Assembly (NCBI RefSeq): GCF_003865135.1
Contig: NZ_BHZC01000001.1
Span: 7,440,001 to 7,504,000, forward strand
Length of the DNA stretch: 64,000 bases
Reading direction: 5' to 3'
Source of the DNA: Streptomyces chrestomyceticus JCM 4735
GTDB lineage: Bacteria > Actinomycetota > Actinomycetes > Streptomycetales > Streptomycetaceae
This document shows, piece by piece, positions 2,727 to 51,118 of the stretch. Each line of letters begins with the position of its first letter. Positions within the stretch are counted from its first letter, which is position 1. Position numbers and translations under genes: made by a program. The notes under the pieces are model-generated. The model did no database searches, was not told where the DNA came from, and saw nothing but the letters and a program-made list of their open reading frames with translations.

Positions 2727-2800
2727 GAAAAGAGTTATGGTGGATCCGCGACGGGGGACGCAGCAACGGTCAGGGGGTGTACGAGCGGCAGGAGGCGCGG

Positions 2801-5800
2801 ATGCCACGGTTCACGCATCTGCACACCGCCTCGGGGTTCTCCCTGCGGTACGGCGCCGCCCACCCGGAACGGCTCGTCGAGCGCGCCGCCGAGCGCGGCA
2901 TGGACGCCCTCGCCCTGACCGACCGGGACGGCCTCGCCGGAGCCGTCCGCTTCGCCAAGGCGGCGGCCGCGGCCGGTGTCCGCCCGCTGTTCGGCACGGA
3001 GCTGGCGGTCGCCCCGCCCGAGGACGGCCGTACGGTACCGGGCGCCGCTCCGGGGACGGCCCGGCAGCGCGGCCCGGTGCGCGGCGGCGCCTTCGTCGAC
3101 GAGTCGGCGGCCCGCGCCGTCTTCCTGGCCCGGGACGGCGCCGCCGGATGGGCCATGCTGTGCCGCCTGGTCTCGGCCGCGCACGCGGCCTCCCTGCCGG
3201 GCGACTCCGCCAAGCCCGTACTGACCTGGACCGCCCTCACCGAAGCGGTACGCGCCGGAGCGCCGGACGCGGTCACCGTCCTGCTCGGGCCCGACTCCGA
3301 GCCCGGCCGCGCGCTGGCCGCCGGGCGCCCCGACCGCGCCGCCCGGCTCCTCGCCCCCTGGCGCGAGCTGTTCGGTGACGCGCTGCGCCTGGAGGTCGTC
3401 GACCACGGCCGTACCGGCACCGGCCCCGGCTCGCTGCGCCTCGCCGCCCGCACCCTCGGCTTCGCCGTCGAACACGGCGTACGCGCCGTACTGACCAACG
3501 CCGTCCGCTACGCCGACCCCGGCCAGGGCCCGGTCGCCGACGTCCTGGACTCCGCCCGCCGCCTGATGCCGGTGGACCGGCACCGCCCGGAGGCGCGAGA
3601 CAGCGGCGAGCGGTGGCTCAAGGACGCGAACGTGATGGCCCGCGCCGCCGAGCGGATCGCCGAGGCGGCCGGCCTCGGGCGCGGCACCGCGCGGCGGCTG
3701 CTGGAGATGACCGAGGAGACGGCCGCGCGGTGCCGGGTCGACCCGGAGGACGACATCGGGCTGGGCACCGTGCACTTCCCTGAACCCCGCCTGGTCGGCG
3801 CCGCGCGCCGCACCGCCGGACGGGTGCTGCGCTCACGCTGCGCCGCCGGGATGGTGCTGCGCGGCTACGACCGGCGCCGCGCGTACTGGGAGCGGATGGA
3901 CCACGAACTGGACATCATCGAACACCACGGCTTCGCCTCGTACTTCCTCACCGTGGCCCAGGTCGTCGAGGACACCAGGGACCTGGGCATCCGGGTCACC
4001 GCGCGCGGCTCCGGCGCGGGCTCGCTGGTCAACCACCTGCTGGGCATCGCGCACGCCGACCCGGTCGAACAGCGGCTGCTGATGGAGCGCTTCCTGTCCA
4101 AGCGCCGCGCGGTGCTGCCCGACATCGACATCGACGTGGAGTCCGCGCGCCGCCTGGAGGTCTACCGCGCGATCTTCGACCGGTTCGGCACCGAGCGGGT
4201 CGCCACCGTCGCCATGCCCGAGACCTACCGGGTCCGGCACGCCGTACGGGACGTGGGCGCCGCCCTGGGCATGGACCCGGCCGAGGTGGACCGGCTGGCC
4301 AAGGCGTTCCCGCACATCCGGGCGCGCGACGCCCGCGCGGCCCTCGCCGAGCTGCCGGAGCTGCGCGGCGTGGACGCGGAGCGGTACGGGCCGATGTGGG
4401 ACCTGGTCGAGGCGCTGGACGCGCTGCCGCGCGGTATCGCCATGCACCCGTGCGGGGTGCTGCTCTCGGACGCCTCGCTGCTGGACCGCACGCCCGTCGT
4501 GCCGACCCGCGGCGAGATCCCGCACCGGGACGGCGTGGGCGGCTCCCCGCTGCCGATGTCGCAGTTCGACAAGGAGGACGTGGAGGAGATGGGGCTGCTC
4601 AAGCTGGACGTGCTGGGCGTACGGATGCAGTCCGCGATGGCGCACGCGACCGCCGAGATCGGCCGCGCCACCGGCCGTACCGTCGACCTCGACGACCCGG
4701 CGCAGGTGCCGCCCGGCGACCCCGCCACGTACGGCCTGATCCGCTCCACCGAGACGCTCGGCTGCTTCCAGATCGAGTCGCCGGGCCAGCGCGACCTGGT
4801 CGGCCGGCTCCAGCCCGCCACCTTTCACGACCTGGTGGTCGACATCTCGCTGTTCCGGCCCGGACCGGTGTCGGCCGACATGGTGCGGCCCTTCATCGAG
4901 GCCCGGCACGGCCGCAGGCCCGCCCGCTACCCGCACCCGGACCTGGAGGAGCCGCTGCGCGAGACCTACGGCGTGGTCGTCTTCCACGAGCAGATCATCG
5001 AGATCCTGCGGATCATGACCGGCTGCGACCGGGGCGAGGCGGACGAGAAGCGGCGCGCGCTGTCCAAGCCGGAGGTGCAGGGGCAGGTACGCGCCTGGTT
5101 CGTGGAGCGGACCGGGCGGCGGGGGTACACCCCCGAGGTGATCGAACGCACCTGGGAGATCGTCGAGGCGTTCGGCTCGTACGGCTTCTGCAAGGCGCAC
5201 GCGGTCGCCTTCGCGGTGCCGACGTACCAGTCCGCCTGGCTCAAGGCGCACCATCCGGCGGCCTTCTACGCCGGGCTGCTCACCCACGACCCGGGGATGT
5301 ACCCGAAGCGGCTGCTGCTGGCGGACGCGCGGCGGCGCGGGGTGCCGGTGCTGCCGCTGGACGTGAACCGGTCGGCGGTCGCTCATCGAATCGAACTGGT
5401 GTCTGATGGAGGTGAGGGGAGCGGTCCGGCGGTCTGGGGGCTGCGGCTCGCCCTCGCCGACGTGCACGGCATGAGCGAGGCCGAGGCCCGGCGCATCGAG
5501 GACGGGCAGCCCTACTCCTCGCTCCCCGACCTGTGGCAGCGGGCCCGCCCCAGCCGCCCGGTGGCCGAACGCCTCGCCCGGGTGGGCGCGCTGGACGCCT
5601 TCGGCGCCAACCGGCGCGACCTGCTGCTGCACCTCGCCGAACTGCACGGACGGCAGCGGGGCGTGGCCGAGGGGCAACTGCCCCTGGACGCGGGGGACGG
5701 CGCCGCCGCGCCCGTCGAGGCGGTCGAACCGGCCGGGCTGCCCGACCTGACCGACGTCGAGAAGCTCAGCGCCGAACTGGGCGTCCTCGGCATGGACACC

Positions 5801-6529
5801 ACCCGGCACCTGATGAGCGACCACCGGGAGTTCCTCGCGGAGCTGGGGGCGGTGCCGGCCAAGCGGCTGCGCGAGGTGGAGCACGGGGAGACGGTGCTGG
5901 TCGCCGGGGCCAAGGCGGCCACCCAGACCCCGCCGATCCGCTCCGGCCGCCGGGTCATCTTCACCACCCTCGACGACAGTACGGGCCTGGTCGACTGCGC
6001 CTTCTTCGACGATTCCCACGAGGCGTGCGCGCACACCGTCTTCCACTCCTGGCTGCTGCTCGTACGGGGCACGGTGCAACGGCGCGGGGCGCGCAGCTTC
6101 AGTGTGGTCGGCGCCGCCGCCTGGAACCTCGCCGAGCTGGCCGAACTGCGGCGCGAGGGTGGGCTGGAAGCGGTCACCGCGCGCCTCGCCGAAGAGGGCC
6201 GGGCGGGGGCGGAGCAGGCCGGTCCGGTGGAGGGCGGAGTGGCGGATGGCGCGCCGATGGACGGCGGTCCGGTAGGCGGCGGGGTGCCGCGCCGGGTGCA
6301 CAGTGAACCGGGCCGTGCGGGCTCGGCGGCGGCCGAGGCGACCTGGGCGGCGGACCGGGCTCCGGCACCGGCCGCCGCGTCCGGGGCCGGAGCGGACCCG
6401 GCGGCCGGCCGTACCATCCGGCTGGAGACCGGCTACGAGCTGCACCCCTGGGCCGACCTCCGCCCGGCGGGCGAAGGCGCCGCCACCGGGCGCAAGCTGT
6501 GGCACGCCAGCCCGGGGAGCGCGGGATGA
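2801..6529 (+). CDS. dnaE2: Error-prone DNA polymerase III alpha subunit DnaE2
   Basis: A 1242-residue DnaE-type polymerase starting MPRFTHLHTASGFS, the PHP domain start typical of DnaE2. The ATG at 2801 has AGGAGG seven bases upstream. The catalytic PDIDIDVES motif lies at about residues 440-448. Helix-hairpin-helix and clamp-binding regions follow, an OB-fold spans about 1030-1110, and the protein ends in the conserved-looking tail LWHASPGSAG. About 90 residues of Gly/Ala/Pro-rich linker near 1125-1215 make it longer than the usual ~1100 residues. DnaE2 performs translesion synthesis and damage-induced mutagenesis with ImuB. The LexA box upstream and the 4-base overlap with an ImuB-like gene support that role. 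Confidence 0.95.
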   Translation: MPRFTHLHTASGFSLRYGAAHPERLVERAAERGMDALALTDRDGLAGAVRFAKAAAAAGVRPLFGTELAVAPPEDGRTVPGAAPGTARQRGPVRGGAFVDESAARAVFLARDGAAGWAMLCRLVSAAHAASLPGDSAKPVLTWTALTEAVRAGAPDAVTVLLGPDSEPGRALAAGRPDRAARLLAPWRELFGDALRLEVVDHGRTGTGPGSLRLAARTLGFAVEHGVRAVLTNAVRYADPGQGPVADVLDSARRLMPVDRHRPEARDSGERWLKDANVMARAAERIAEAAGLGRGTARRLLEMTEETAARCRVDPEDDIGLGTVHFPEPRLVGAARRTAGRVLRSRCAAGMVLRGYDRRRAYWERMDHELDIIEHHGFASYFLTVAQVVEDTRDLGIRVTARGSGAGSLVNHLLGIAHADPVEQRLLMERFLSKRRAVLPDIDIDVESARRLEVYRAIFDRFGTERVATVAMPETYRVRHAVRDVGAALGMDPAEVDRLAKAFPHIRARDARAALAELPELRGVDAERYGPMWDLVEALDALPRGIAMHPCGVLLSDASLLDRTPVVPTRGEIPHRDGVGGSPLPMSQFDKEDVEEMGLLKLDVLGVRMQSAMAHATAEIGRATGRTVDLDDPAQVPPGDPATYGLIRSTETLGCFQIESPGQRDLVGRLQPATFHDLVVDISLFRPGPVSADMVRPFIEARHGRRPARYPHPDLEEPLRETYGVVVFHEQIIEILRIMTGCDRGEADEKRRALSKPEVQGQVRAWFVERTGRRGYTPEVIERTWEIVEAFGSYGFCKAHAVAFAVPTYQSAWLKAHHPAAFYAGLLTHDPGMYPKRLLLADARRRGVPVLPLDVNRSAVAHRIELVSDGGEGSGPAVWGLRLALADVHGMSEAEARRIEDGQPYSSLPDLWQRARPSRPVAERLARVGALDAFGANRRDLLLHLAELHGRQRGVAEGQLPLDAGDGAAAPVEAVEPAGLPDLTDVEKLSAELGVLGMDTTRHLMSDHREFLAELGAVPAKRLREVEHGETVLVAGAKAATQTPPIRSGRRVIFTTLDDSTGLVDCAFFDDSHEACAHTVFHSWLLLVRGTVQRRGARSFSVVGAAAWNLAELAELRREGGLEAVTARLAEEGRAGAEQAGPVEGGVADGAPMDGGPVGGGVPRRVHSEPGRAGSAAAEATWAADRAPAPAAASGAGADPAAGRTIRLETGYELHPWADLRPAGEGAATGRKLWHASPGSAG

Positions 6530-7602
6530 CCGGCCGGGGCGGGGCGGCCGCCGGGGCCGGGGCCTCTGCCGAGATGCTGTACGTACGGTTCCGCGCCGCC
6601 GGTGACGGCGGCCCGGACGGAGACCGGGGAGCCCCGCCCGGCGAGGAGACCTACGAACAACTCCTGCGGCTGCTCGGCCAGTTCACGCCGGTGATCGAGG
6701 CGCTGCCGCCGGACGCCGCGCTGGCCGACGTACGGGGAGCGCTGCGCTACTTCGAACGGGACGCCGCCGGCATCGCCGAACTGATCCGGCTGCGGGCGCT
6801 GGCCTGGTACGGCGTGCGGTGCACCATCGGTGTCGCCGGCAACCCGCTGCTCGCGCGGATGGCGGCGCAGGGCGCCGCGCCCGGTGAGGTGCGCCGGGTC
6901 CCCGGGGACGCCGTCGCGGACTTCCTCGACCGCAAACCGGCCGCCGCCCTGCACGGCGTCGGACCGGCGACCGCGCGCGCCCTGTGCGCGTACGGGCTGG
7001 ACAGCGTCGGGCGGATCGCCGCCGCGCCGCCCGCGACCCTGCAGCGCATCCTCGGCGCGAAGGCGGGCCGGGCGGTGTACGACAAGGCCCGCGGGATCGA
7101 CCCGAGTCCGGTCACCCCGAACGCCGCCGCCCGCTCGATCGGCGCCGAACACCGCTTCGCGCACGACGAACTGGACCCGGACCGGCGGCGGCGCGCGCTG
7201 CTCTCGCTCGCGGACGACCTCGGCGCCCGGCTGCGCGGCAGCGGCCGGGCGGCCCGCGCGCTCACCCTCACCGTGCGCTACGCCGACCGTTCCACGACGA
7301 CGCGCACCCGGCGGCTGCCCGAACCGACCGCGCACGGGCCCGCGCTGACGGACGCGGCATACGCGCTGCACGCGGCGCTCGGGCTGCAACGGGCGCGCGT
7401 CCGGTCCGTGGCGCTGCGGGCGGAGGACCTGTGCCGCGCCGAACTCGCCGCCCGGCAACTGACGTTCGACCCGGCCGAGGACAAGGCGCGCCGCATCGAG
7501 GCCGCCGTGGACCGGGCGCGGGAGCGCTTCGGCGAGGCGGCGGTCCGGCCCGCGGCGAAGCTCGCTCAGCCGTACAGCCGTTCCGCGTACCGCGGGCCGT
7601 AG
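6526..7602 (+). CDS. Catalytically degenerate Y-family DNA polymerase homologue (ImuB-like)
   Basis: 358 residues from an ATG that overlaps the dnaE2 stop (ATGA), with GGAG upstream, so translation is coupled. The fold is that of DinB/ImuB: helix-hairpin-helix LHGVGPATARALCAYGLDSV near residues 145-165, a little-finger region, and a C-terminal QLTFDP followed by KARRIEAAVDRARERFG, which corresponds to the clamp-binding region of Y-family proteins. The catalytic acidic motifs are missing: the N-terminal DMDAFF strand reads LYVRFR, and SIDEAYLDV is replaced by ALPPDAALADV. Loss of catalysis with retained clamp binding is the signature of ImuB, the adaptor that recruits DnaE2. No imuA homologue lies nearby. 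The 3' end overlaps the convergent PPOX gene by 37 bases. Confidence 0.85.
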   Translation: MTGRGGAAAGAGASAEMLYVRFRAAGDGGPDGDRGAPPGEETYEQLLRLLGQFTPVIEALPPDAALADVRGALRYFERDAAGIAELIRLRALAWYGVRCTIGVAGNPLLARMAAQGAAPGEVRRVPGDAVADFLDRKPAAALHGVGPATARALCAYGLDSVGRIAAAPPATLQRILGAKAGRAVYDKARGIDPSPVTPNAAARSIGAEHRFAHDELDPDRRRRALLSLADDLGARLRGSGRAARALTLTVRYADRSTTTRTRRLPEPTAHGPALTDAAYALHAALGLQRARVRSVALRAEDLCRAELAARQLTFDPAEDKARRIEAAVDRARERFGEAAVRPAAKLAQPYSRSAYRGP

Positions 7603-8620: not shown

Positions 8621-9637
8621 TCAGCCGCGCTGTCGGGCGGCCTTGCGGCGCGCGCTCACGAGCAGGACCGAGGCGCCCAGCGCCACGACGGCCGCGCCGC
8701 CGACGGCCATCGGCGCGGTCGAGCCGTCGCCGCCGGTCTCCGCGAGGTGGCTGCCGGCCGCCTGCTGTGCACCGGCCTGCTTCGGGTCCACCTCCTTGGC
8801 CGCACCGCCGTTGGGGTGCGCCGCGTTCCCCGCGGAGGCGTCCGGTGCCTTGCCGGTGTCCCCGGCAGCCTGAGCGCCGCCGTGCGCGCCGTGGCTGCCG
8901 TGGTGCATGTGGTCGATGGTCGACTTGCCCGCTTCGGCGGCGATCTGCCGGTCGCTCGGCGCGGCCGGGGCCGACACCGCCGCGCCCTTGCCCGTACCGC
9001 CGCCCTTGCCGAAGACGACGTCCGAGCAGGTGTAGAACGCCTCGGGGCTGTCCGAGCGCTGCCAGATGCTGTAGATCAGGTGGCGGCCGGACTTGGCGGG
9101 CACCTTGCCGCCGAAGACGTAGTCGCCGTTGGTCAGCTTCGGGTTCGTGACCTTGGCGAACGGCTTGGCCTCCAGGTCGGACCACTTGAGCGGCTTGGCG
9201 GGGTCGTAGCCGTCCTTGGTGATGTACAGCTCGAAGGAGCCGCGGTGCGGGGCGGTCGCCTTGTACCGGAAGGTGTGGTCGCCCGCCTTCAGGTTCGTGG
9301 CCGGCCAGTCGGCCCGCGGCAGGTCCAGGCCCTTGTACTCGGGGGCGTTGGCGCTGCACAGCTTGCCGTCCGGGATGCGCTCCTTCGACCGGCCGCCCGC
9401 ATTGCCGTCCCGTACGCCGTTCCAGTCGTACAGGGCCTGGGTGCCGCCGGCCGCGACCATCGCCTTGCAGGCCGCGGACTTCGGGTGCTCGGGTCCCTCG
9501 GCGAAGCAGGCGGAGATCCGGCTGACCGGGTCGGTCATCGAGCCGTGGGCGACGGCCGGGGTCGCGGTGAGCGCGGTGAGCGCCAGCGGGGCGATGCCGG
9601 TCAGCGCGATCCCGGCTGCCGTGCGGCGAGCGGTCAT
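8621..9637 (-). CDS. Secreted AA10 lytic polysaccharide monooxygenase with LAXTG cell-wall sorting signal
   Basis: 338 residues; ATG at 9637 with AAGGAG nine bases upstream. A signal peptide ends ATPAVA, so the mature protein starts with His31 (HGSMTDPVSR), the N-terminal copper ligand of AA10 LPMOs. The second histidine is in TAPHRGSFELYITK (about H131), and AFYTCSDVVF supplies the axial aromatic. A Ser/Ala/Gly linker contains a His-rich patch (DHMHHGSHGAHGG). The C-terminus reads LAETG (298-302), a hydrophobic helix and RRKAARQRG, a LAXTG signal for class E sortases. AA10 enzymes oxidatively cleave chitin or cellulose. Wall anchoring is inferred from the motif. The gene is divergent from the siderophore operon. 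Confidence 0.92.
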   Translation of the reverse strand: MTARRTAAGIALTGIAPLALTALTATPAVAHGSMTDPVSRISACFAEGPEHPKSAACKAMVAAGGTQALYDWNGVRDGNAGGRSKERIPDGKLCSANAPEYKGLDLPRADWPATNLKAGDHTFRYKATAPHRGSFELYITKDGYDPAKPLKWSDLEAKPFAKVTNPKLTNGDYVFGGKVPAKSGRHLIYSIWQRSDSPEAFYTCSDVVFGKGGGTGKGAAVSAPAAPSDRQIAAEAGKSTIDHMHHGSHGAHGGAQAAGDTGKAPDASAGNAAHPNGGAAKEVDPKQAGAQQAAGSHLAETGGDGSTAPMAVGGAAVVALGASVLLVSARRKAARQRG

Positions 9638-9920: not shown

Positions 9921-9952
9921 TTGACAAGGTTAGGTATGCCTAACCTAATCTT
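9921..9952 (+). promoter_or_regulatory. Promoter of the siderophore operon, probably leaderless
   Basis: TTGACA at 9921-9926 is a perfect -35. A -10 is formed by CTAATC or TAATCT (9945-9952). The GTG start at 9959 lies six to nine bases after the -10, and no Shine-Dalgarno sequence precedes it. Transcription probably starts at or next to the start codon. The iron box occupies the spacer. Confidence 0.7.
9930..9948 (+). promoter_or_regulatory. DtxR/DmdR-type iron box
   Basis: TTAGGTATGCCTAACCTAA matches 17 of 19 positions of the DtxR/IdeR/DmdR consensus TTAGGTTAGSCTAACCTAA. It lies between the -35 and -10 elements, so Fe2+-loaded repressor would block RNA polymerase. This is strong evidence that the downstream NIS operon is iron-regulated. 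Confidence 0.92.
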
Positions 9953-9958
9953 GCGCGG

Positions 9959-11239
9959 GTGAACGAGGCCGCAACCCCGAACGACGCCTGCGCGGGCCTG
10001 ATCCTCCTGGCCCGCAACCCCACCGACTCCGTCACGGAAGGCTTCCTGCCGGCCGCGGCCCGCCTCGGCCTCGCCGTGACGCTGCTGACCGACCAGCCGG
10101 ACGCCCACCGCGCGGCGTACGAGCGGTACGCGTGCGAACGGCGCGGGGGCGGGCCGTCGGCGGGAGCCCTGCCCGGCAGGCTGGAGATCGTACCGTGCGA
10201 CGTGCAGGACGTCCGCGCCGTGATCGCGCGAACCGCCGCACAGGCGGCACGCGTTGGGGCCCCTGCCGCGGTCTTCACCAACAGTGACCATCTCCAGGTC
10301 CAGGCCGCCTTGGCCGCCGACTACTTCGGGTTGCCCGGCAAGGACTGGCGGGCCGCGTTCCGCACGAAGAACAAGGCCGAACTGCGCCGCAGCCTGGCCG
10401 CCGCCGGACTGGACACCGTCCGCTCCGCCGAACTGGCGCCGGGCGACGACCCGGCCGGGCACGGCGTCCCGTACCCCGGTGTGCTCAAGCCGCGCGAAGG
10501 GGTGGCCGGCGAGGACGTCTTCCTGGTGGCGGACGACGCGGAACTGGCCACGCGGTGCGGCGAGATCCGGGCCAGGCGGCCCGGTGCCGCGCTGGTCCTG
10601 GAGGAGTACCTGGACGGCCCGCTGCACACCCTGGAAACCCTCGGCGACGGGCACGTACTGCACCCGCTGGCCTCGTTCCGTACGGACATCTCGCCGCCGC
10701 CGCACTTCATCGAGGAACGGCTGACCCTGCTCCCCGAACCGCCCGGCCCCCGCACCGGCCAGGTGCTGGAGCACTTACGCGCGCTCGGCGTCGGATTCGG
10801 CGCCTGCCACACGGAGTACGTGGATCAGGGCGGCCGGGCCCGGATCATCGAGGTCAACTACCGCGCCATCGGCGACCGGTGCGACCTCGCCCTCGCCGAA
10901 GCCCTGGACCTCCCGCTCTTCGAGCTGGTCCTCCGTACGCACCTGGGGGAGCCGCTGCCGGACGCCCTGGCCGTGCGGCGCGGCACGCGGGTGCGCATGG
11001 AGTACGTGTGCGCCGACCGGGACGGAACGCTCAAGGCGGCGCCGGAGGCACACGTACAGGAAGCGGACGGCGTCCGCCTCGACTACCGGCCCTTGCGTGA
11101 GACGGGCGAGCGGCACCCGCTGTACCGCACCAACCGGGACTTCCTCGGGGTGCTGCGGGCGACCGGCCGCGACGAAGGGCGAATCGACGCGGCCGTACGG
11201 GAGTTTCTGGCCGCCCACTGTTGGGAGATCGTGCCGTGA
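9959..11239 (+). CDS. ATP-grasp ligase of a vibrioferrin-type siderophore pathway (PvsA-like)
   Basis: 426 residues from GTG 9959 with no SD sequence, consistent with a leaderless message. The pre-ATP-grasp part contains AAVFTNSDHLQVQAALAADYFGLPGKD. ATP-grasp motifs follow: VLKPREGVAGEDVF (glycine-rich loop), LVLEEYLDGPLHTLE, and IIEVNYRAIGDRCD, with Glu and Asn as metal and ATP ligands. ATP-grasp enzymes join a carboxylate to an amine through an acyl phosphate. It is first in a four-gene operon with two NIS synthetases and a PLP decarboxylase, the order seen in vibrioferrin clusters (pvsA-B-D-E). There PvsA is thought to couple small building blocks such as alanine and 2-ketoglutarate-derived units. 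The exact substrate here is inference. Confidence 0.82.
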   Translation: MNEAATPNDACAGLILLARNPTDSVTEGFLPAAARLGLAVTLLTDQPDAHRAAYERYACERRGGGPSAGALPGRLEIVPCDVQDVRAVIARTAAQAARVGAPAAVFTNSDHLQVQAALAADYFGLPGKDWRAAFRTKNKAELRRSLAAAGLDTVRSAELAPGDDPAGHGVPYPGVLKPREGVAGEDVFLVADDAELATRCGEIRARRPGAALVLEEYLDGPLHTLETLGDGHVLHPLASFRTDISPPPHFIEERLTLLPEPPGPRTGQVLEHLRALGVGFGACHTEYVDQGGRARIIEVNYRAIGDRCDLALAEALDLPLFELVLRTHLGEPLPDALAVRRGTRVRMEYVCADRDGTLKAAPEAHVQEADGVRLDYRPLRETGERHPLYRTNRDFLGVLRATGRDEGRIDAAVREFLAAHCWEIVP

Positions 11240-13239
11240 CGGCGGTGGCGGGAGACGGCGTACCGGACACACTGCGGAGTGCGGCCCTGAAGGGCGGGCG
11301 CACGGAAAGGGACGCCCCGGAGGGCGGGGCTCCGGGGAGCGGAGCGGAAGAGGAGCTGATGCGGCGCGTGCTGAGCGCGCTGCTGCGCGAGGACGCGTAC
11401 GGGCTGCGCCGCCGCGCCGGGACGGTGCGCCGCCCGGACGGCGACTGGCTGCGGCTGGGCCTCCCGGACGGGCCGGTCCTGGTCCCGGTCGAGGCCGACG
11501 GCTTCCAGTGCGAGACCGCCGCCCGCAGGGGCGAGCTGGCGCGCGCCGACGGGACACGGGTCACTGGGGTGGACAGCATCATGGGCGTACTGCGCACCGC
11601 CGTGCCGCCCGAGGACCGGCCGGGCTTCGACGCCTTCACCGGCGAGTGCCACCAGGCGCTGGCCACCGCCCGGATGCAGGCCGCCGAGCGCGCGTCGGTG
11701 ATCGCCCGCCTCGGCCCGCACGCGGGCGGCGGCGCGTACGGCGGGAACAACGGGCATGGCGGGAACAACGGCGCGCCGGCCGGGGGAGTCCGCGGCACGG
11801 CGGCCGCCGCGTACGACGGCGACCGCGCCTGGTGCGGCCCCGGCGGCGCGCTCGACTACGACACGCTCGCCGCCTACCGCGACCACCCCGTCTACCCCAC
11901 CGGACGGGCCCGCCTCGGCCTGGACGAGGAACAGATCCGCTCCTACGCACCGGAGTTCGCCCCCGGCTTCGCGCTGCGCTGGCTGGCCCTCCCGCGCGAG
12001 GCCGTCAACGGCGACCCGGCGGCGCTGCCCGCCTGGTGGCCCGCCCCCGGGGACCTCGGCCTGCCCCGGCTGGACGGCAGCCACCTCGCCCTGCCCGTCC
12101 ACCCGCTCACCGCCGAAGGGCCGCTGGCCGAAGCGCTGCGCGTTCGCGGCCTCGAAGACGGCGCGCGGCTCGCCGACCGCGCCTGGCTGCGGGTACGGCC
12201 CACCCTCTCGATGCGGACCGTCGCCGTCACCGACGACCCGTACACCCACCTCAAACTCCCGCTCGCCACCGCCACCCTGGGCCGCCTCAACCGGCGCGGC
12301 ATGAAGCCCGGCACGCTGGTGGACGGCGCGGTGGGCCAGCGGCTGCTGGAGACCGTCGTCGACCGGCACCCGCGCTTCGCCGAGACCGTGCTCCTCGCCG
12401 ACGAGACCACCCACCTGGACGCCGGACACGACCTGCTGGCCACTCTGGTGCGCCGCTTCCCGAAGGGCAGCAGCGGTACGGCGGCGGTGTGCGGCAGCGC
12501 CGACGGGCTGAAGGGCGCGCGGAGCCTGCGCGGTCTGCGCGGGTCCAGCGGGCTGCGCGGCGCCCGGGTCGTGCCGCTGGCCGCGCTCGCCGCCCGGATG
12601 CCGGACGGCTCACTCGTCGCCGACGACCTCGCCCGCCGCTTCTACGGCGGCGACCTGCTCGCCCTTCTCGACGCTTACCTGACGCTCCTCCTGGACTGGC
12701 ACACCACCCTCTTCGCGTACGGCATCGCGCTGGAGTCGCACCAGCAGAACACCTCCCTCGTCCTGGACGAGGTGGCCGGGCGCCCGCGCCTGCGCCTGCT
12801 GCTCAAGGACAACGACGGGCCGCGGGTGAACACCGTACGGCTGGCCGCCGTCCTGGGCGGGGACGCCGCCGACCTGTGCGGCTTCGACGACCGGCGCATC
12901 CTGGTGGGCGGCGACGCGCCGGTGGCCGACGTCTTCGCCACCATCACCGTCCACCTGTGCGCCGGGGCCCTCGCCTTCGAACTGGCCCGGCTCGGCCGCG
13001 CGCCGCTGCCGGTCCTGCTCGGGCAGCTCAGAGCGCGGCTCACAGAGGCCGTCGACCGGCTGGAAGCCGCCCCCGGCGCTGCCGCCGCCGTCCTGCGCCA
13101 CCGCGTCCTGGACGCCGACCGGCTGCCGGTCAAGGCCATGGTCACGGCCGGCAGCCTGCTGTCGAAACGCCGGTCGGGGGCGTCGGACATCAACAAGTTC
13201 TACGTCACCGGGCCGAACTACCTGACGCCGGGCCGGTGA
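11236..13239 (+). CDS. IucA/IucC family NIS siderophore synthetase (PvsB-like)
   Basis: 667 residues from GTG 11236, overlapping the ATP-grasp gene by four bases (GTGA), with GGGAG eight bases upstream. IucA/IucC motifs are visible: LALPVHPLTAEGPL, LSMRTVAVTDDPYTHLKLPLATATLGRLNRRG, ALESHQQNTSLVLD and LLLKDNDGPRVN, the last being the acidic metal/ATP site. A FhuF-like C-terminal half follows. NIS synthetases adenylate a citrate carboxyl group and condense it with an amine or alcohol. In the vibrioferrin scheme PvsB and PvsD act on citrate and its partner amine. Its N-terminal region is divergent from common IucA/IucC sequences, and a Gly/Asn-rich insert (YGGNNGHGGNNG) sits near residue 170. 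Confidence 0.88.
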   Translation: MTAVAGDGVPDTLRSAALKGGRTERDAPEGGAPGSGAEEELMRRVLSALLREDAYGLRRRAGTVRRPDGDWLRLGLPDGPVLVPVEADGFQCETAARRGELARADGTRVTGVDSIMGVLRTAVPPEDRPGFDAFTGECHQALATARMQAAERASVIARLGPHAGGGAYGGNNGHGGNNGAPAGGVRGTAAAAYDGDRAWCGPGGALDYDTLAAYRDHPVYPTGRARLGLDEEQIRSYAPEFAPGFALRWLALPREAVNGDPAALPAWWPAPGDLGLPRLDGSHLALPVHPLTAEGPLAEALRVRGLEDGARLADRAWLRVRPTLSMRTVAVTDDPYTHLKLPLATATLGRLNRRGMKPGTLVDGAVGQRLLETVVDRHPRFAETVLLADETTHLDAGHDLLATLVRRFPKGSSGTAAVCGSADGLKGARSLRGLRGSSGLRGARVVPLAALAARMPDGSLVADDLARRFYGGDLLALLDAYLTLLLDWHTTLFAYGIALESHQQNTSLVLDEVAGRPRLRLLLKDNDGPRVNTVRLAAVLGGDAADLCGFDDRRILVGGDAPVADVFATITVHLCAGALAFELARLGRAPLPVLLGQLRARLTEAVDRLEAAPGAAAAVLRHRVLDADRLPVKAMVTAGSLLSKRRSGASDINKFYVTGPNYLTPGR

Positions 13240-13402
13240 CCGCCTCCCCGGTTCCGTGCCCGGTGCCCGGCGTGCCACCCGTCCGGGCCCACTGACGGGT
13301 CACAGGCCCGAAGGCCCCGGAGACACCCCCCACCGTCCCCCGTGTCCGGGCCCACACCCCCTCCCAGGTATCCGCTCCCCACCCCCTGTTGGAGTCCCCG
13401 CA

Positions 13403-15187
13403 ATGCCCCTCGCCCCCTCCCGCACCACCGGCACGGACGACCGCACGCTCCCCCTCACGGCCGACGAACCCGTCGCCCACACCCTCCTCAACTGCCTGCT
13501 GCGCGAGATCTGCGGCCCGGAACGGCAGACCGCCGTGTCCGGTACGCACCTGCTGCTCCGGCTGCCGCGCTGCGGCGAACTCCTGCGGGTCGGCCTGCGC
13601 CGCGTCTCGCTCACCGGGGCGCACCGCTTCACCGGCCCGGCCGGGCGGTGGCGCGACGGCGGCTGGCACACACTGGGCTGGGAGGAACTGGCCGCGTGCG
13701 CGCAGCGGGAGCTGGAGCTGCGGACGGGCGTACGGAACGAAGAATTCCGGGCGCAGGTCGCGTCGAGCCACGCGGGCGTCGCCGCCGCCCTGGAACACGC
13801 CGCCGCCCCCGGCCGGGCGGGCAGCCGGGGCACCGGCCCGCACGCCCGCTACCTGCGCTCCGAACAGTCGCTGCTGTTCGGCCACCGCTTCCACCCGACG
13901 CCCAAGTCCCGCACCGGCAGCCCCGCCGACTGGGCTCGCTACGCGCCCGAGGCCGGCGCCCGCTTCCCCCTGCGCCACCTGGCCGTACGCGCCGACCGGG
14001 TACGCGAGGAGGCCGCCACCCCCGCCGCCCTGACCGCGCTGGACCGGCAGGGCGAGGTGCCCGACGGCTACCGGCTGCTGCCCGCGCACCCCTGGCAGTA
14101 CGCCATGCTCCGCGCGCACCCCGCCCTGCGGGACGCCGTACGGCGCGGCGACGTGCTCGACCTGGGGGAGCGCGGTGACGCCTTCGCGCCCACCGCGTCC
14201 GTCCGCACGCTCTACGACGGCCGGGACTTCCTCAAGTTCAGCCTCAACACCCGCATCACCAACTGCGTACGCAAGAACGCCGACTACGAACTGCGCGGCG
14301 CCGTCGCCCTCACCCGCCACCTGGAACCCGTCGCCACCGCCCTCGCCGCCCGCTTCCCCGGCTGCGACCTGCTGCGGGAGCCCGGCTACCGCACCGTGGA
14401 CGTGGGCGACCGGGAGCTGGCCGAAGGGCTCGGCGTCATCGTCAGGGAAGGACTGGACGCACGGCTGCGGCCCGGCGTCACCCCGCTGCTGGCCGCCGCC
14501 GTCGCCGACGAACACCCGTCGAGCGACGCCCAGTTCGGCGAGCTGCTGCGCGGCGCCGACCCGGTGGCGGCGCTGGGCTGGTGGGACGCGTACCTCTCGC
14601 TGCTCGTACCGCCCGTGCTGGCCGCCTACTTCGACCACGGCGTGGTCCTCGAACCGCACCTCCAGAACGTCGTCCTCGGCGTCGACGCCCTCGGCATGCC
14701 CGTCCAGGCACTCTTCCGCGATCTGGAGGGCACCAAGCTGCTGCCCGGCCCGCACACCGCGTTCCTCGACAGCCTGCCAGGGGACGTGGCCCGGCCCCTC
14801 GTCCACGGACCGCGGCGCGGCTGGGGCCGGGTCGTCTACTGCCTGCTGGTCAACCACCTCTCCGAGACGGCCGCCGCCGTCGCCGACCGGCATCCGGGGC
14901 TGGAGGGCGAACTCTGGCGCGCCGTACGCGGAGTGCTGCGCGAACGGAGCGCCGCACACGGCGAACCGGCCGAACTCCGTGCCCTGCTGGCCGGCGCGCC
15001 GCTGCCCGCCAAGGCCAACCTGCTGACGCGGTGGGGACGCGCGGCGGACCGGGAGGCGGGGTACGTGCACATCACCTCGCCCGTCGGCCCCGGCACGGCG
15101 AGCGGTACGGTGTCCGACGGCCTGGCCGCGCCCCGCTCGCGCGCCGCATCGCGGGCCGCTTTCCCCCGTCCCCGGAGCACCTCATGA
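13403..15187 (+). CDS. IucA/IucC family NIS siderophore synthetase (PvsD-like)
   Basis: 594 residues; ATG 13403 with GGAG eight bases upstream, after a 163-base gap in the operon. Conserved NIS motifs: LLFGHRFHPTPKSRTG (ATP-binding HPxxKSR), LLPAHPWQY, FLKFSLNTRITNCVRKN, VVLEPHLQNVVLGVD and LFRDLEGTKLL. These are more canonical than in the preceding synthetase. It condenses a citrate-type carboxylate with an amino or hydroxy partner during siderophore assembly. The stop overlaps the next ATG (ATGA), so translation is coupled. No terminator is visible in the 13240-13402 gap, so I take it as one operon. Confidence 0.9.
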   Translation: MPLAPSRTTGTDDRTLPLTADEPVAHTLLNCLLREICGPERQTAVSGTHLLLRLPRCGELLRVGLRRVSLTGAHRFTGPAGRWRDGGWHTLGWEELAACAQRELELRTGVRNEEFRAQVASSHAGVAAALEHAAAPGRAGSRGTGPHARYLRSEQSLLFGHRFHPTPKSRTGSPADWARYAPEAGARFPLRHLAVRADRVREEAATPAALTALDRQGEVPDGYRLLPAHPWQYAMLRAHPALRDAVRRGDVLDLGERGDAFAPTASVRTLYDGRDFLKFSLNTRITNCVRKNADYELRGAVALTRHLEPVATALAARFPGCDLLREPGYRTVDVGDRELAEGLGVIVREGLDARLRPGVTPLLAAAVADEHPSSDAQFGELLRGADPVAALGWWDAYLSLLVPPVLAAYFDHGVVLEPHLQNVVLGVDALGMPVQALFRDLEGTKLLPGPHTAFLDSLPGDVARPLVHGPRRGWGRVVYCLLVNHLSETAAAVADRHPGLEGELWRAVRGVLRERSAAHGEPAELRALLAGAPLPAKANLLTRWGRAADREAGYVHITSPVGPGTASGTVSDGLAAPRSRAASRAAFPRPRSTS

Positions 15188-16452
15188 TCACCGAGCTGGC
15201 CGCGCGCCAGGTGGACCTCCTCACGGCCGGACACCCGTGCCCCGGCGGCGCACTCGACGGCCCGCTGCCCGCCTACGTCTACGACTTGTCCGACCTGGAC
15301 GCCCACGCGGCCGCCGTACGGGCCGCGCTGCCGCCCGCCGTCGAGCTGTACTACGCGGCCAAGGCCAACCCGGACCCGCATCTGCTGCGGACCCTGGCCC
15401 CGTACATCGACGGCTGCGAGGTCTCCTCGGCTGGCGAGGCCGCCCACGTCCGCGCGGCCGTGCCCGCGCTGCCGCTGGCCTTCGGCGGGCCGGGGAAGAC
15501 CGAGGCGGAACTGCGGGCCGCCCTCGACCTGGGCGTCGAACGCTTCCACCTGGAGAGCGAGCACGAACTGCGGATGCTCGCCGCCCTCGCCGGGGAGACC
15601 GGCCGGACCGCCGACGTGCTGCTCCGCGTCAACCTGCCGCTCGGCGCGGGTGTGACGGCGGGCGCCGCCCTCGCGATGGGCGGCCGGGCCACCCCCTTCG
15701 GCCTCGACCCGGCGCGCGCGGAACACTGCCTGCCGCTGCTCTGCGACGGGCCGCTGCGGCTGCGCGGCATCCACGCCCACCTGGCCAGCGGCCTGGACGC
15801 GCCCGCCCAACTGGTCCTCGCCGCCCGCATCACCGAATGGGCCCGGCACTTCGCCGCCCGGCACGGCCACTCCCTGTGCGAGGTCGGCCTCGGCGGCGGC
15901 ATGGCGGTCGACTACACGCGTCCGGACACCCGTTTCGACTGGGCGGAGTACGGCACCGGGCTCGCCGAGCTGGCCGACCGCTACCCCGAGTTCACCCTGC
16001 GCATCGAGCCGGGCCGGGCGCTGACCGCCTACTGCGGCTGGTACGTGACCGAAGTCCTGGACGTCAAGCACAGCCACGGCGAAGCCTTCGCCGTACTGCG
16101 CGGAGGCACCCACCACCTGCGCACTCCGGTGGCCAAGGGGCACGACCACCCCTTCGTCGTCCTGCCCGTCGAGGAGTGGACCCGTCCCTGGCCGCGTCCG
16201 GGCGCACACGGGCAGGAGGTCACCCTCGCGGGGCAACTGTGCACCCCCAAGGACGTACTGGCGCGCCGGGTCCCGGTCGCCCACCTGCGCGCCGGCGACC
16301 GGGTCGCCTTCGCACTGGCCGGCGCGTACGCCTGGAACATCTCGCACCACGACTTCCTGATGCACCCGCCGCCGGCCTTCCACCACGTGGGTGGTCCGGC
16401 CGTCCCGGGCCCGCGGGGCGGCGCCGCTGCCCGTGCCCGGCGCCGCCCCTGA
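15184..16452 (+). CDS. Type III PLP-dependent amino acid decarboxylase (PvsE-like)
   Basis: 422 residues; ATG 15184 overlaps the previous stop, and GGAG lies six bases upstream. Fold-type III markers: YYAAKANPDPHLL with the PLP lysine near residue 60, HLESEHEL, GIHAHLASG, CEVGLGGGMAVDY, RIEPGRALTAYCGWYV and QLCTPKDVL with the active-site cysteine. These enzymes (ornithine/diaminopimelate decarboxylase class, including SbnH and PvsE) decarboxylate an amino acid or an amino acid already joined to citrate. In vibrioferrin, PvsE makes the ethanolamine moiety by decarboxylating a serine unit. It ends five bases from the convergent roadblock gene, and no exporter or receptor gene follows. Confidence 0.9.
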   Translation: MITELAARQVDLLTAGHPCPGGALDGPLPAYVYDLSDLDAHAAAVRAALPPAVELYYAAKANPDPHLLRTLAPYIDGCEVSSAGEAAHVRAAVPALPLAFGGPGKTEAELRAALDLGVERFHLESEHELRMLAALAGETGRTADVLLRVNLPLGAGVTAGAALAMGGRATPFGLDPARAEHCLPLLCDGPLRLRGIHAHLASGLDAPAQLVLAARITEWARHFAARHGHSLCEVGLGGGMAVDYTRPDTRFDWAEYGTGLAELADRYPEFTLRIEPGRALTAYCGWYVTEVLDVKHSHGEAFAVLRGGTHHLRTPVAKGHDHPFVVLPVEEWTRPWPRPGAHGQEVTLAGQLCTPKDVLARRVPVAHLRAGDRVAFALAGAYAWNISHHDFLMHPPPAFHHVGGPAVPGPRGGAAARARRRP

Positions 16453-44795: not shown

Positions 44796-46157
44796 ATGAC
44801 CGCCACGCAGCTCACCGGGGCGCGGGCGGGAGCCCGGCTGGACCGGCTGCCGCCGTCCCGCTGGCACCGCCGCCTCACCTTCACCGTGGGCATCGGTGCC
44901 TTCTTCGACCTCTACGAGATCTTCCTCGGCGGGGTGCTGGCCGCGGTGCTCGCCGAGCACTGGCACCTGGACCACACCGCCAAGTCGTGGGTGATCGCCG
45001 CCGGGTTCCTCGGCATGTTCGTGGGCGCCAATGTGCTCTCCGTGCTCGCGGACCGGTTCGGACGGCGCCGGATGTTCCTGGTCAATCTGGGCGCGTACTC
45101 CCTGTGTTCGCTGCTCTGCGCCTTCGCGCCGAACGCCGAGTGGCTGATCGCGCTGCGCTTCCTGGCCGGGCTCGGCCTCGGTGCCGAACTAGTCCTGGTG
45201 GACACCTACCTGGCCGAGTTCCTGCCACGCGCGGTCCGCGGCCGCTACATCGCCTGGGCCTACACCTTCGGCTTCCTCGGCGTGCCGGTGGCCGCCTTCG
45301 TCGGCGCGCGCCTGGTCGCCACCCGCGAGCTGTTCGGTGTCGAGGGCTGGCGGTGGCTGCTGGTGGCCGGCGCCCTGGGCGCGGCGTTCATCCAGCTCAT
45401 GCGTGCCCGGCTGCCCGAGTCGCCGCGCTGGCTCGCCGTGCACGGCCGCGAGGAGGAGGCCGCGCGGATCGTCACGGACATCGAGGAGCGTGTCGCGCGG
45501 GAGACCGGCGACACCCTGCCGTCGGTCGCGGTGGCGGCGGAAGTGCCGCAGCGCCGTGTCCCGCTGGGCGAGATGTTCCGCGGTGACTACCGGCGCCGTA
45601 CGGTCATGTGGTGGCTCTTCCAGGTGCTCCAGACCGTGGGCTACTACGGTTTCGGCTCGCTGGCGCCGGTCGTCCTGACCGCCAAGGGCCACACCGTCAC
45701 CGCGTCGCTGAGCTACGCCGCGCTCAGTTTCTGCGGCTATCCGATCGGTTCGGCCCTGTCCGTACCGCTCATCGACCGGATCGAGCGCAAGACACTGATC
45801 ATCGCCTCCGCACTGGGCATGGCCGGGTGCGGCCTGGCCTTCGGCTTCGCCGACGCGGGGTGGCTGATCGTGGGCGCCGGCTTCGCGCTCACCGTGTGCA
45901 GCAACGTCTTCTCCAACGCCTTCCACGTCTACCAGACCGAGATCTTCCCCACCGGCCTGCGCAGCAGCGCCATCGGCATCGCCTACTCGCTGTCCCGGCT
46001 CACCTCGGTGATCCTGCCGTTCGTCGCGCTGACCGTGCTGGCGGACCTCGGGCCCGGTGCCGTCTTCATAGGATCGGCGGTACTGATGGTGCTGCTGTGC
46101 CTGGATGTGGCACTGCTGGGCCCGCGCAGTACGGGACGCAGCCTGGAGCGGATCTGA
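44796..46157 (+). CDS. MFS transporter of the sugar/aromatic-acid porter type
   Basis: 453 residues; ATG 44796 with GGAGGA five bases upstream. Twelve helices with MFS signatures: ADRFGRRRMFLVN after helix 2, RFLAGLGLGAELVLVDTYLAEFLPRAVRGR in the helix 4-5 region (the sugar porter-type R-x-G-R), PESPRWLAVHGREEEA in the central loop, and IERKTLI. N-terminal helix 1 has GIGAFFDLYEIFLGG, like the AAHS and NaiP-type organic acid carriers. It probably imports an organic acid or sugar with protons; the substrate is unknown. The 200 bases upstream are repetitive (GCCGTACGCC motifs). A strong terminator follows. Confidence 0.88.
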   Translation: MTATQLTGARAGARLDRLPPSRWHRRLTFTVGIGAFFDLYEIFLGGVLAAVLAEHWHLDHTAKSWVIAAGFLGMFVGANVLSVLADRFGRRRMFLVNLGAYSLCSLLCAFAPNAEWLIALRFLAGLGLGAELVLVDTYLAEFLPRAVRGRYIAWAYTFGFLGVPVAAFVGARLVATRELFGVEGWRWLLVAGALGAAFIQLMRARLPESPRWLAVHGREEEAARIVTDIEERVARETGDTLPSVAVAAEVPQRRVPLGEMFRGDYRRRTVMWWLFQVLQTVGYYGFGSLAPVVLTAKGHTVTASLSYAALSFCGYPIGSALSVPLIDRIERKTLIIASALGMAGCGLAFGFADAGWLIVGAGFALTVCSNVFSNAFHVYQTEIFPTGLRSSAIGIAYSLSRLTSVILPFVALTVLADLGPGAVFIGSAVLMVLLCLDVALLGPRSTGRSLERI

Positions 46158-46208: not shown

Positions 46209-47087
46209 TCAGAGAATGACCTGGTCCGAGCGGGTTTCCAGGCGGGCGATCGCCTTGCGGCAGGCGCCGGCGAACTTCTTGAACTCGTCGTTGGTGCTGC
46301 CGGGGCGCCCGTCCATCGTGTCCTTGTCGAAGAAGGACGCGCGCAGTTCGGTGCTGAGTTCGAGCTGGCCGCCCTTGCCGAGCATGGTGCGGTTGCAGGG
46401 GTTGGCGGGGTTGACTCCGGCCAGGTCCGGGAAGTCGTCGCCGTCCACCGTCTTGAAGTGCTTGCCCAGCTCCTCGTGCAGCAGCTTCTTGAACGCGGCG
46501 TTCAGGCCGCCGACCACGACCACCTTGGGGTCCTGGCCGCTGCGGACACCGGCCTGCTCGGCGGTGCAGCCGTGCAGACTGAGGACGTTGAGACTGGAGG
46601 CCGCCATGGAGAGCGCGACATGGTCGTCGCAGTGCTTCGCGGTGACGTGCAGGTCGCGGTTGGAGCCCAGGTTCATGCTGGGCAGCCGCAGTCCCTCGAA
46701 CATCCAGTAGTCGTACACCGGCTCACCCGGGAAGAGCGCCTCCAGGGTGTGGGGCCAGTAGCCCGCGATGCCCAGGCACAGCTCGGAGGTGCCCTTCTCG
46801 ATGCCGCCGCCGTGCAGCGCCATGATCGTCGTGCGGTGGTACGGGTGTCTCTCTCCCTGCTCGTTGTCGAGCAGCTCATGCCGTCTGTAACGGCGCGCGA
46901 ACTGGATGCCCTCCTGACCGGAGAGCTTCTTGTACAGATCCGTGTTGGTGTCGTACACGTCCTTGTCGGACGTGGCGTGGGCCAGGGTGGCCCCCATGCC
47001 CGTGACCAGGGGGGTGCTGCTGATGGCTGCCGCGCCGAGCGCGGCGGTGAGGACCGTACGACGGTTGATGGGTGACATGTCGCACAT
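46209..47087 (-). CDS. Tat-type secreted poly-gamma-glutamate hydrolase family protein
   Basis: 292 residues from ATG 47087 (alternatives at 47105 and 47078). A twin-arginine-like signal is seen: MSPINRRTVLTAALGAAAIS. The mature part has TIMALHGGGIEKGTSELCLGIAG, DLHVTAKHCDDHVALSMAAS, NVLSLHGCTAEQAG and VVVGGLNAAFKKLLHEEL, the metal-binding His/Glu pattern of phage-type poly-gamma-glutamate hydrolases (PghP family). It should cut gamma-linked polyglutamate outside the cell. It is a single gene, separated by 60 bases from the GntR regulator stop. Confidence 0.88.
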   Translation of the reverse strand: MCDMSPINRRTVLTAALGAAAISSTPLVTGMGATLAHATSDKDVYDTNTDLYKKLSGQEGIQFARRYRRHELLDNEQGERHPYHRTTIMALHGGGIEKGTSELCLGIAGYWPHTLEALFPGEPVYDYWMFEGLRLPSMNLGSNRDLHVTAKHCDDHVALSMAASSLNVLSLHGCTAEQAGVRSGQDPKVVVVGGLNAAFKKLLHEELGKHFKTVDGDDFPDLAGVNPANPCNRTMLGKGGQLELSTELRASFFDKDTMDGRPGSTNDEFKKFAGACRKAIARLETRSDQVIL

Positions 47088-47147
47088 CTTCACCTGCTCC
47101 GTCATCGGCGCCCACACCGGGGTGGGTTCCGGCGAACCGCGGCCGGA

Positions 47148-51115: not shown

Positions 51116-51118
51116 CCC

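Follow-up and report, generated by a model that had tools for sequence, protein, structure and literature searches.

A four-gene operon at positions 9959-16452 of a 64,000-nucleotide stretch of Streptomyces chrestomyceticus JCM 4735 DNA is best explained as a reduced, transporter-less form of the pvs (vibrioferrin-type) operons, whose product would be a siderophore made independently of nonribosomal peptide synthetases. We put the probability of this explanation, taken as a whole, at roughly two in three. The stretch, referred to below as the window, covers positions 7440001-7504000 of one 9,377,418-bp contig. The four genes lie on the plus strand in the order A-B-D-E, according to the open reading frame (ORF) listing of the window, and an iron box precedes them; neither the exporter gene pvsC nor uptake genes adjoin them. 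Many relatives carry a full form of the operon with its transport genes, and it seems that these were lost time and again from clusters that retained the genes for production. The features of the operon are as follows.

9921-9926, plus strand: TTGACA, a possible -35 element, picked out by reading the sequence
9930-9948, no strand assigned: palindromic iron box between two possible promoter hexamers, agreeing with the assumed consensus at 17 of 19 positions
9946-9951, plus strand: TAATCT, a possible -10 element, likewise from reading the sequence
9959-11239, plus strand: A, PvsA-type ATP-grasp ligase, 426 amino acids, GTG start at 9959
11236-13239, plus strand: B, PvsB-type IucA/IucC synthetase, 667 amino acids, start uncertain, with 11245 as the alternative
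13240-13402, no strand assigned: gap between B and D, 163 bp, the place of the pvsC exporter in relatives, with no recognisable remnant
13403-15187, plus strand: D, PvsD/AcsD-type IucA/IucC synthetase, 594 amino acids
15184-16452, plus strand: E, PvsE-type pyridoxal phosphate (PLP) decarboxylase, 422 amino acids

To judge from homology, the pathway type is an already known one, the pvs biosynthetic family. Outside homologues were taken from annotated plasmid-borne clusters of Vibrio fortis, Pantoea soli, Piscirickettsia, Cupriavidus necator (pHG1) and Rhodococcus. All five clusters have the gene order of the window plus a major facilitator superfamily (MFS) gene between B and D, and within the compared set the four proteins match their positional Pvs homologues better than the non-equivalent families. 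The PvsA-type protein had no Pfam family at E 0.001; most of its listed relatives contain the ATP-grasp family PF13535, and among PDB entries it matches L-amino-acid ligases. Proteins bearing the name Streptomyces chrestomyceticus are 96-97% identical to it. Its identities are 48% to Rhodococcus, 48% to C. necator pHG1, 35% to Pantoea (a homologue annotated 'siderophore biosynthesis protein PvsA'), 33% to Vibrio fortis and 30% to Piscirickettsia. The PvsB-type protein matched the Pfam families IucA_IucC (88 bits) and FhuF (48 bits), with identities of 39% to Rhodococcus, 37% to Cupriavidus, 34% to Pantoea, 34% to Vibrio and 31% to Piscirickettsia. The motif pair E(S/A)(N/H)QQN followed by KD(N/H)D, which we take to be catalytic from work on AcsD-type enzymes, was present in 20 of 21 rows shown from a 48-row PvsB alignment, the exception, L097, having PQN. 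For the PvsD-type protein the same two Pfam families scored 172 and 120 bits, the top match among solved structures was AcsD (E 2.7e-71), and the identities were 48%, 38%, 34%, 33% and 28% to Rhodococcus, Cupriavidus, Pantoea, Vibrio and Piscirickettsia, respectively. AcsD condenses citrate with serine. The PvsE-type protein has Orn/DAP/Arg decarboxylase domains in Pfam; its top solved match (E 1.1e-84) was 6knh, entered as a probable diaminopimelate decarboxylase protein and presumably the staphyloferrin B decarboxylase SbnH, and its identities in the same order of species were 56%, 53%, 49%, 45% and 40%.

All four window genes are intact ORFs with conserved motifs. The preliminary description of the locus, as an ATP-grasp ligase, two IucA/IucC synthetases and a PLP decarboxylase in pvsA-B-D-E order, is thus borne out by the ORFs, the Pfam and PDB matches, the relatives and the alignment to the positional homologues of the five outside clusters. 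Its statement that the first synthetase is divergent does not hold: the protein is an ordinary PvsB when compared with the five outside PvsB proteins, and it diverges only from the solved IucA/IucC proteins. The statement that the genes are coupled holds for A-B and for D-E, each pair overlapping by 4 bp, and fails for B and D, whose spacing of 163 bp means that not all genes of the operon are coupled. In the trees, the actinobacterial sequences form a branch separate from Vibrio and Pantoea; the placement of Cupriavidus differs by tree, being with the actinobacteria in one and with Piscirickettsia (support 52) in the other.

The missing exporter was confirmed and the search was extended to the whole genome. 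A remnant of pvsC was sought in the gap at 13240-13402 and not found, no PvsC-like stretch was detected in the window at E 1e-6, and the 66 genome candidates scored, out of 90, gave no PvsC-like match at E 1e-10 (66 being the number scored in any genome that had more). In 18 full-form loci the B-D interval was 1180-1294 bp, and the gene that it holds in full-form Streptomyces is a PvsC homologue, 33-48% identical to the five outside PvsC proteins. Relocation of pvsC was rejected as well, since, with up to 66 candidates scored per genome, none of the 22 reduced-form genomes (that of the window among them) yielded the exporter and all 6 full-form controls did. Two MFS genes of the window, at 44796-46157 and 51119-52504, were considered as exporters of the operon and set aside, as they are ordinary MFS matches lying 28 and 35 kb from it. 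Uptake genes are likewise absent near the operon, as first described: the window contains no Peripla_BP_2 binding protein, and the genome's closest counterpart to the full-form binding protein, at 47% identity, is encoded 3.6 Mb away. All 6 full-form genomes, and none of the 22 reduced-form ones, had a binding protein of at least 64% identity; paralogues of 52% identity or less were seen in both groups.

In many relatives the full form consists of the genes for an ATP-binding cassette (ABC) importer, then A, B, the MFS exporter, D and E. A first sample of 43 loci (40 from Streptomyces and three from a collection of plasmids) had an MFS gene between B and D in 18 loci, 17 of which also had a binding protein before A; a binding protein was nearby in none of the 25 loci without the MFS gene. 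The larger set was obtained by adding 80 named loci, the best 80 of 519 relatives. After removal of six duplicates there were 117 loci, including one from Embleya and one from Nonomuraea (L070, which has A and B only, was excluded from this tally and from the trees), and both transport states could be classified in 108. The other nine were three loci with the exporter and two without it that had too little upstream sequence, three with D or E missing, and L165, whose pvsC, matched in two parts that share a frame and flank an insert, is probably intact. With cut-offs for an intact gene set by us at 300 amino acids for the exporter and 250 for the binding protein, 55 loci had both, four had the exporter and no binding protein, 40 had neither, six had an exporter fragment and no binding protein, one had fragments of both, and two had a binding-protein fragment and no exporter. 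Thus 49 of 108 loci lacked an intact exporter, and an adjacent intact binding protein was found in 0 of these 49 versus 55 of the 59 with the exporter; L158, L170 and L190 were scored as having the binding protein although it was just 46-48% identical to the query. Remnants were present in nine of the 49 reduced loci: seven pvsC fragments of 30-162 amino acids and three binding-protein fragments, one locus having both. The fragments between B and D in L150 (162 amino acids), L143 (82) and L148 (41) look like stages of exporter loss. The named reduced loci include Streptomyces scabiei 87.22 and S. coeruleorubidus ATCC 13740, and the named full loci include S. canus and S. viridochromogenes NRRL 3413.

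The iron box TTAGGTATGCCTAACCTAA at 9930-9948, which we take to be of the IdeR/DmdR type, differs from the assumed consensus at 2 of 19 positions on the minus strand and at 3 on the plus strand. No match with up to 3 mismatches was found in 100 shuffles, and the genome-wide scan gave 31 strand-matches versus 0 for a reversed control pattern, so that the 17/19 box of the preliminary description stands. Boxes ending 9-10 nucleotides ahead of the start codon were also found in L051, L053, L054, L057, L058 and L088. In the first sample, a box with up to 4 mismatches lay within 400 bp before A in 21 of 25 loci without the MFS gene and in 0 of 18 with it. Among the reduced loci of the larger set, a box lay within 450 bp of A in 34 of 51 at up to 4 mismatches and in 48 of 51 at up to 5, compared with 0 of 51 for the reversed pattern. 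By contrast, within 450 bp of A 52 of 55 full-form loci lacked a box with 4 or fewer mismatches, and in 50 of 55 the best box was 4.0-5.0 kb upstream of A, at about the start of the importer genes. A deletion of the importer would therefore place the old box beside A. The four exporter-only loci had no box before A at up to 4 mismatches and had one in 3 of 4 at 5 mismatches. The predicted box suggests iron-responsive control of the operon. A consensus scan requiring a spacer of 16-18 nucleotides found no promoter at the operon, as expected from the 19-nucleotide spacing of the two hexamers. If the -10 element at 9946-9951 is real, transcription would start near the GTG at 9959 and the mRNA would possibly be leaderless.

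A tree was made for 111 loci and four outgroups from the joined sequences of A, B, D and E, with L088 and L157 (truncated E) removed by a 300-amino-acid filter; L088 also has unusual gaps and may be frameshifted. This gene tree requires a minimum of 19 changes in exporter state, or 22 losses if regain is barred. In 13 independent pairs that differ in the exporter and are separated by supported branches, the binding protein changes alike in 10 or 11 (the count varies with the choice of pairs) and in the opposite direction in none (sign test, p 0.001-0.002). An earlier run with 43 rows had 5 of 6 pairs changing together (p 0.06). The loci L052, L056 and L060, whose A is 67-70% identical to that of the window, are full-form and belong to the same well-supported clade, so on the simplest view the transport genes were lost in the lineage of the window. 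The four exporter-only loci, set beside no locus with the binding protein only, suggest that uptake was lost before the exporter, although four cases are few. Because A and B lie between the two lost blocks, joint loss implies two deletions or a replacement, in many lineages.

The biosynthetic genes are still under constraint, as judged from the ratio of nonsynonymous to synonymous substitution (dN/dS), with D apparently somewhat relaxed in reduced pairs. The median dN/dS in 13 reduced sister pairs was 0.25 for A, 0.27 for B, 0.285 for D and 0.20 for E, and in 17 full pairs it was 0.23, 0.24, 0.189 and 0.19, respectively. The four mixed sister pairs (medians 0.25, 0.31, 0.18 and 0.20) were kept out of the comparison. 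Between the window and L051 the values were 0.33, 0.34, 0.28 and 0.15.

The proposed pathway is as follows. When iron is scarce, the iron-loaded regulator would leave the box at 9930-9948 and the four genes would be transcribed. The PvsD-type and PvsE-type enzymes would turn citrate and serine into a citryl-ethanolamine half, an assignment that draws on the AcsD match and on general background. The other half would come from the PvsA-type ligase, which would link an amino acid with a keto acid (in vibrioferrin, alanine with 2-oxoglutarate); coupling of both halves by the PvsB-type synthetase would give vibrioferrin or a near analogue. Most simply, the ancestral cluster would have had its own ABC importer and MFS exporter. 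With both gone from the lineage of the window, release and re-uptake would be carried out by other systems or be dispensable. In a review (PMC5577590), ethanolamine, alanine, 2-oxoglutarate and citrate are the proposed precursors of vibrioferrin, the specific functions of the enzymes are described as untested at that date, and the division of labor differs from ours in that PvsE decarboxylates free serine and PvsA makes the ester.

Several observations weigh against this explanation. Identity to the Vibrio proteins is just 33-45%, which leaves room for a changed amine, amino acid or keto acid. The clusters of C. necator, Pantoea and Rhodococcus have an aldolase/citrate lyase-family gene, and no such gene was found among the scanned neighbors of the operon. 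Horizontal regain could stand in for some of the inferred losses; on the gene tree the minimum is 19 changes, against 22 losses with regain barred. The loci were sampled non-randomly, both as hits from the 295 Streptomyces genomes examined and as the best 80 of 519 relatives. Finally, D shows a higher dN/dS in reduced pairs (median 0.285) than in full ones (0.189), a descriptive comparison.

The low identity to the Vibrio enzymes, together with the separate actinobacterial branch, also makes it possible, though not what we favor, that the operon makes a different citrate-based carboxylate, with another amino acid, amine or keto acid, and thus a new siderophore of the same architecture. The motifs and gene set are unchanged, which argues against such a product, as does the lack of an obvious amine-supply gene among the scanned neighbors within about 8 kb on either side, a scan that took in part of the ORFs. 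The Pfam-matched neighbors were polymerase, PNPOx, LPMO, Roadblock, acetyltransferase, GntR, AAA and glycosyl-hydrolase-like proteins, and three small neighbors in this range had no Pfam match.

A further alternative concerns the role of the product rather than its structure. Classical siderophore uptake may have been abandoned, with the chelator serving as an intracellular iron buffer or, once released, handing iron to desferrioxamine or general iron-siderophore importers. Joint absence of the exporter and adjacent importer recurs many times among loci that keep biosynthesis and the iron box, and the genome has a DesD gene (at 7.345 Mb, 105 kb upstream of the operon) and about 12 Peripla_BP_2 binding proteins, several of them within about 1 kb of iron boxes, so that a takeover of transport is easily imagined. 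Desferrioxamine genes are common in Streptomyces, and the presence of DesD therefore discriminates little; export by another MFS protein and import through the 47% paralogous binding protein would keep the classical role. We regard abandonment of classical uptake as doubtful, and it is with equal reserve that we extend it to many Streptomyces lineages, as an iron-controlled vibrioferrin-type chelator uncoupled from dedicated transport and acting as internal buffer or released mobilizer. If true, this would invert the familiar pattern of siderophore cheaters, in which production is dropped and uptake kept.

That the operon is a decaying leftover whose product is no longer made is very unlikely. 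The uptake genes and exporter are lost, remnants of transport genes persist in nine of 49 reduced loci, and D is somewhat less constrained in reduced pairs, all of which would fit decay. The four ORFs and their motifs are nevertheless intact, the medians of 0.20-0.29 in reduced pairs stand beside 0.19-0.24 in full pairs, the window-L051 values are 0.15-0.34, and 48 of 51 reduced loci still have the box within 450 bp of A when up to 5 mismatches are allowed. An achromobactin- or staphyloferrin B-type pathway, to which the best solved matches of the PvsD-type protein (AcsD of achromobactin) and the PvsE-type protein (6knh) would point, is scarcely credible, because three IucA/IucC synthetases work in those pathways, where a PvsA-type ligase has no part, and the operon has two synthetases plus a PvsA relative.

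Returning to the reduced pvs-type operon, siderophore evolution is usually told as production being lost and uptake kept. Missing transport with kept biosynthesis looks new as an aspect of this family; no report of joint exporter and importer loss with kept biosynthesis was found in the literature on NRPS-independent siderophores and exporter gene loss, of which coverage was partial, so that reports may exist. Transport may have passed to other systems, or the product may require no transporters of its own. Full-form close relatives are available, which makes the need for dedicated transport testable in natural pairs. Streptomyces would also be a possible source of vibrioferrin, a compound tentatively identified in soil according to PMC7527475.

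Other features of the window and its relatives can be noted. An LPMO_10 lytic polysaccharide monooxygenase gene lies upstream of the operon on the opposite strand (8621-9637), and an LPMO_10-like gene adjoins several related clusters too. In 26 of the 43 first-sample loci (for example, L062-L069) the cluster is closely preceded by a divergent gene that encodes a C-terminal cysteine motif that is FhuF-like by eye, with a 50% homologue at G000 2007962. A DNA polymerase III alpha-type protein (1250 amino acids) followed by an IMS (Y-family polymerase-like) protein at 2777-7602 resembles an error-prone repair pair. A Poly-gamma-glutamate hydrolase family protein (PF05908) is encoded at 46209-47105, and at 49592-52504 a CitMHS citrate-transporter family gene directly precedes an MFS gene, with no link to the operon seen. 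Outside the operon the genome has three IucA/IucC matches, DesD and two at 2.56 Mb. The latter (L002 and L003, at G000:C1:2559695-2564015), of which the L003 protein best matches the aerobactin synthase IucA, are possibly a second Streptomyces pathway of this NRPS-independent type.

A close PvsA relative was present in 70 of 295 sampled Streptomyces genomes, about a quarter, with that of the window included; 74 had matched at E 1e-20, and four were removed as other ATP-grasp proteins, 30-35% identical. In a phylum-wide sample, 3 of 396 genomes matched at E 1e-40, namely that of the window and two others of the genus, so the family is thin outside Streptomyces in that sample; copies do occur outside the genus, in Embleya, Nonomuraea, Rhodococcus and Cupriavidus. 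The preliminary description knew of no characterised vibrioferrin pathway in Streptomyces; the view that none had been reported there is not supported, given these counts and published entries. The S. avermitilis genes avsA-D (SAVERM_7320-7323) are termed a 'vibrioferrin-like polyhydroxycarboxylate siderophore' cluster in PMC9394381, and the secondary-metabolite table of the S. tunisialbus genome paper lists 'Siderophore, Vibrioferrin, 18%' (PMC7385001). Proven vibrioferrin from Streptomyces was not found in the partially covered literature combining the two names, where reports may exist.

In comparison with known systems, avsA-D resembles the window operon in having, in the published annotation, three 'siderophore synthetase components' followed by a decarboxylase and no listed transporter; its orthology to the window is taken from that annotation, S. 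avermitilis not being among the best 80 of 519 relatives kept. The clusters of C. necator H16 pHG1 and Rhodococcus oxybenzonivorans pRB29 share A (48%), B (37-39%), D (38-48%) and E (53-56%) with the window, and unlike it they have MFS, aldolase/citrate lyase-family, and receptor or binding-protein genes. Vibrio pvsABCDE, compared through the Vibrio fortis and Pantoea soli plasmid copies, shares the A, B, D and E homologues, their order and their motifs at 33-49% identity, whereas the window has no pvsC and no adjoining receptor or ABC genes. The full-form Streptomyces loci are the closest: in L052, L063 and L069 the four proteins are 57-74% identical to those of the window and the order is alike, the difference being the permeases, ATPase and binding protein before A and PvsC between B and D. 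L115 and L138 are full-form by the two features checked there, the binding protein and exporter, and L068/L124, from Streptomyces sp. GQFP, also has exporter and importer; its genome paper cites the vibrioferrin gene paper.

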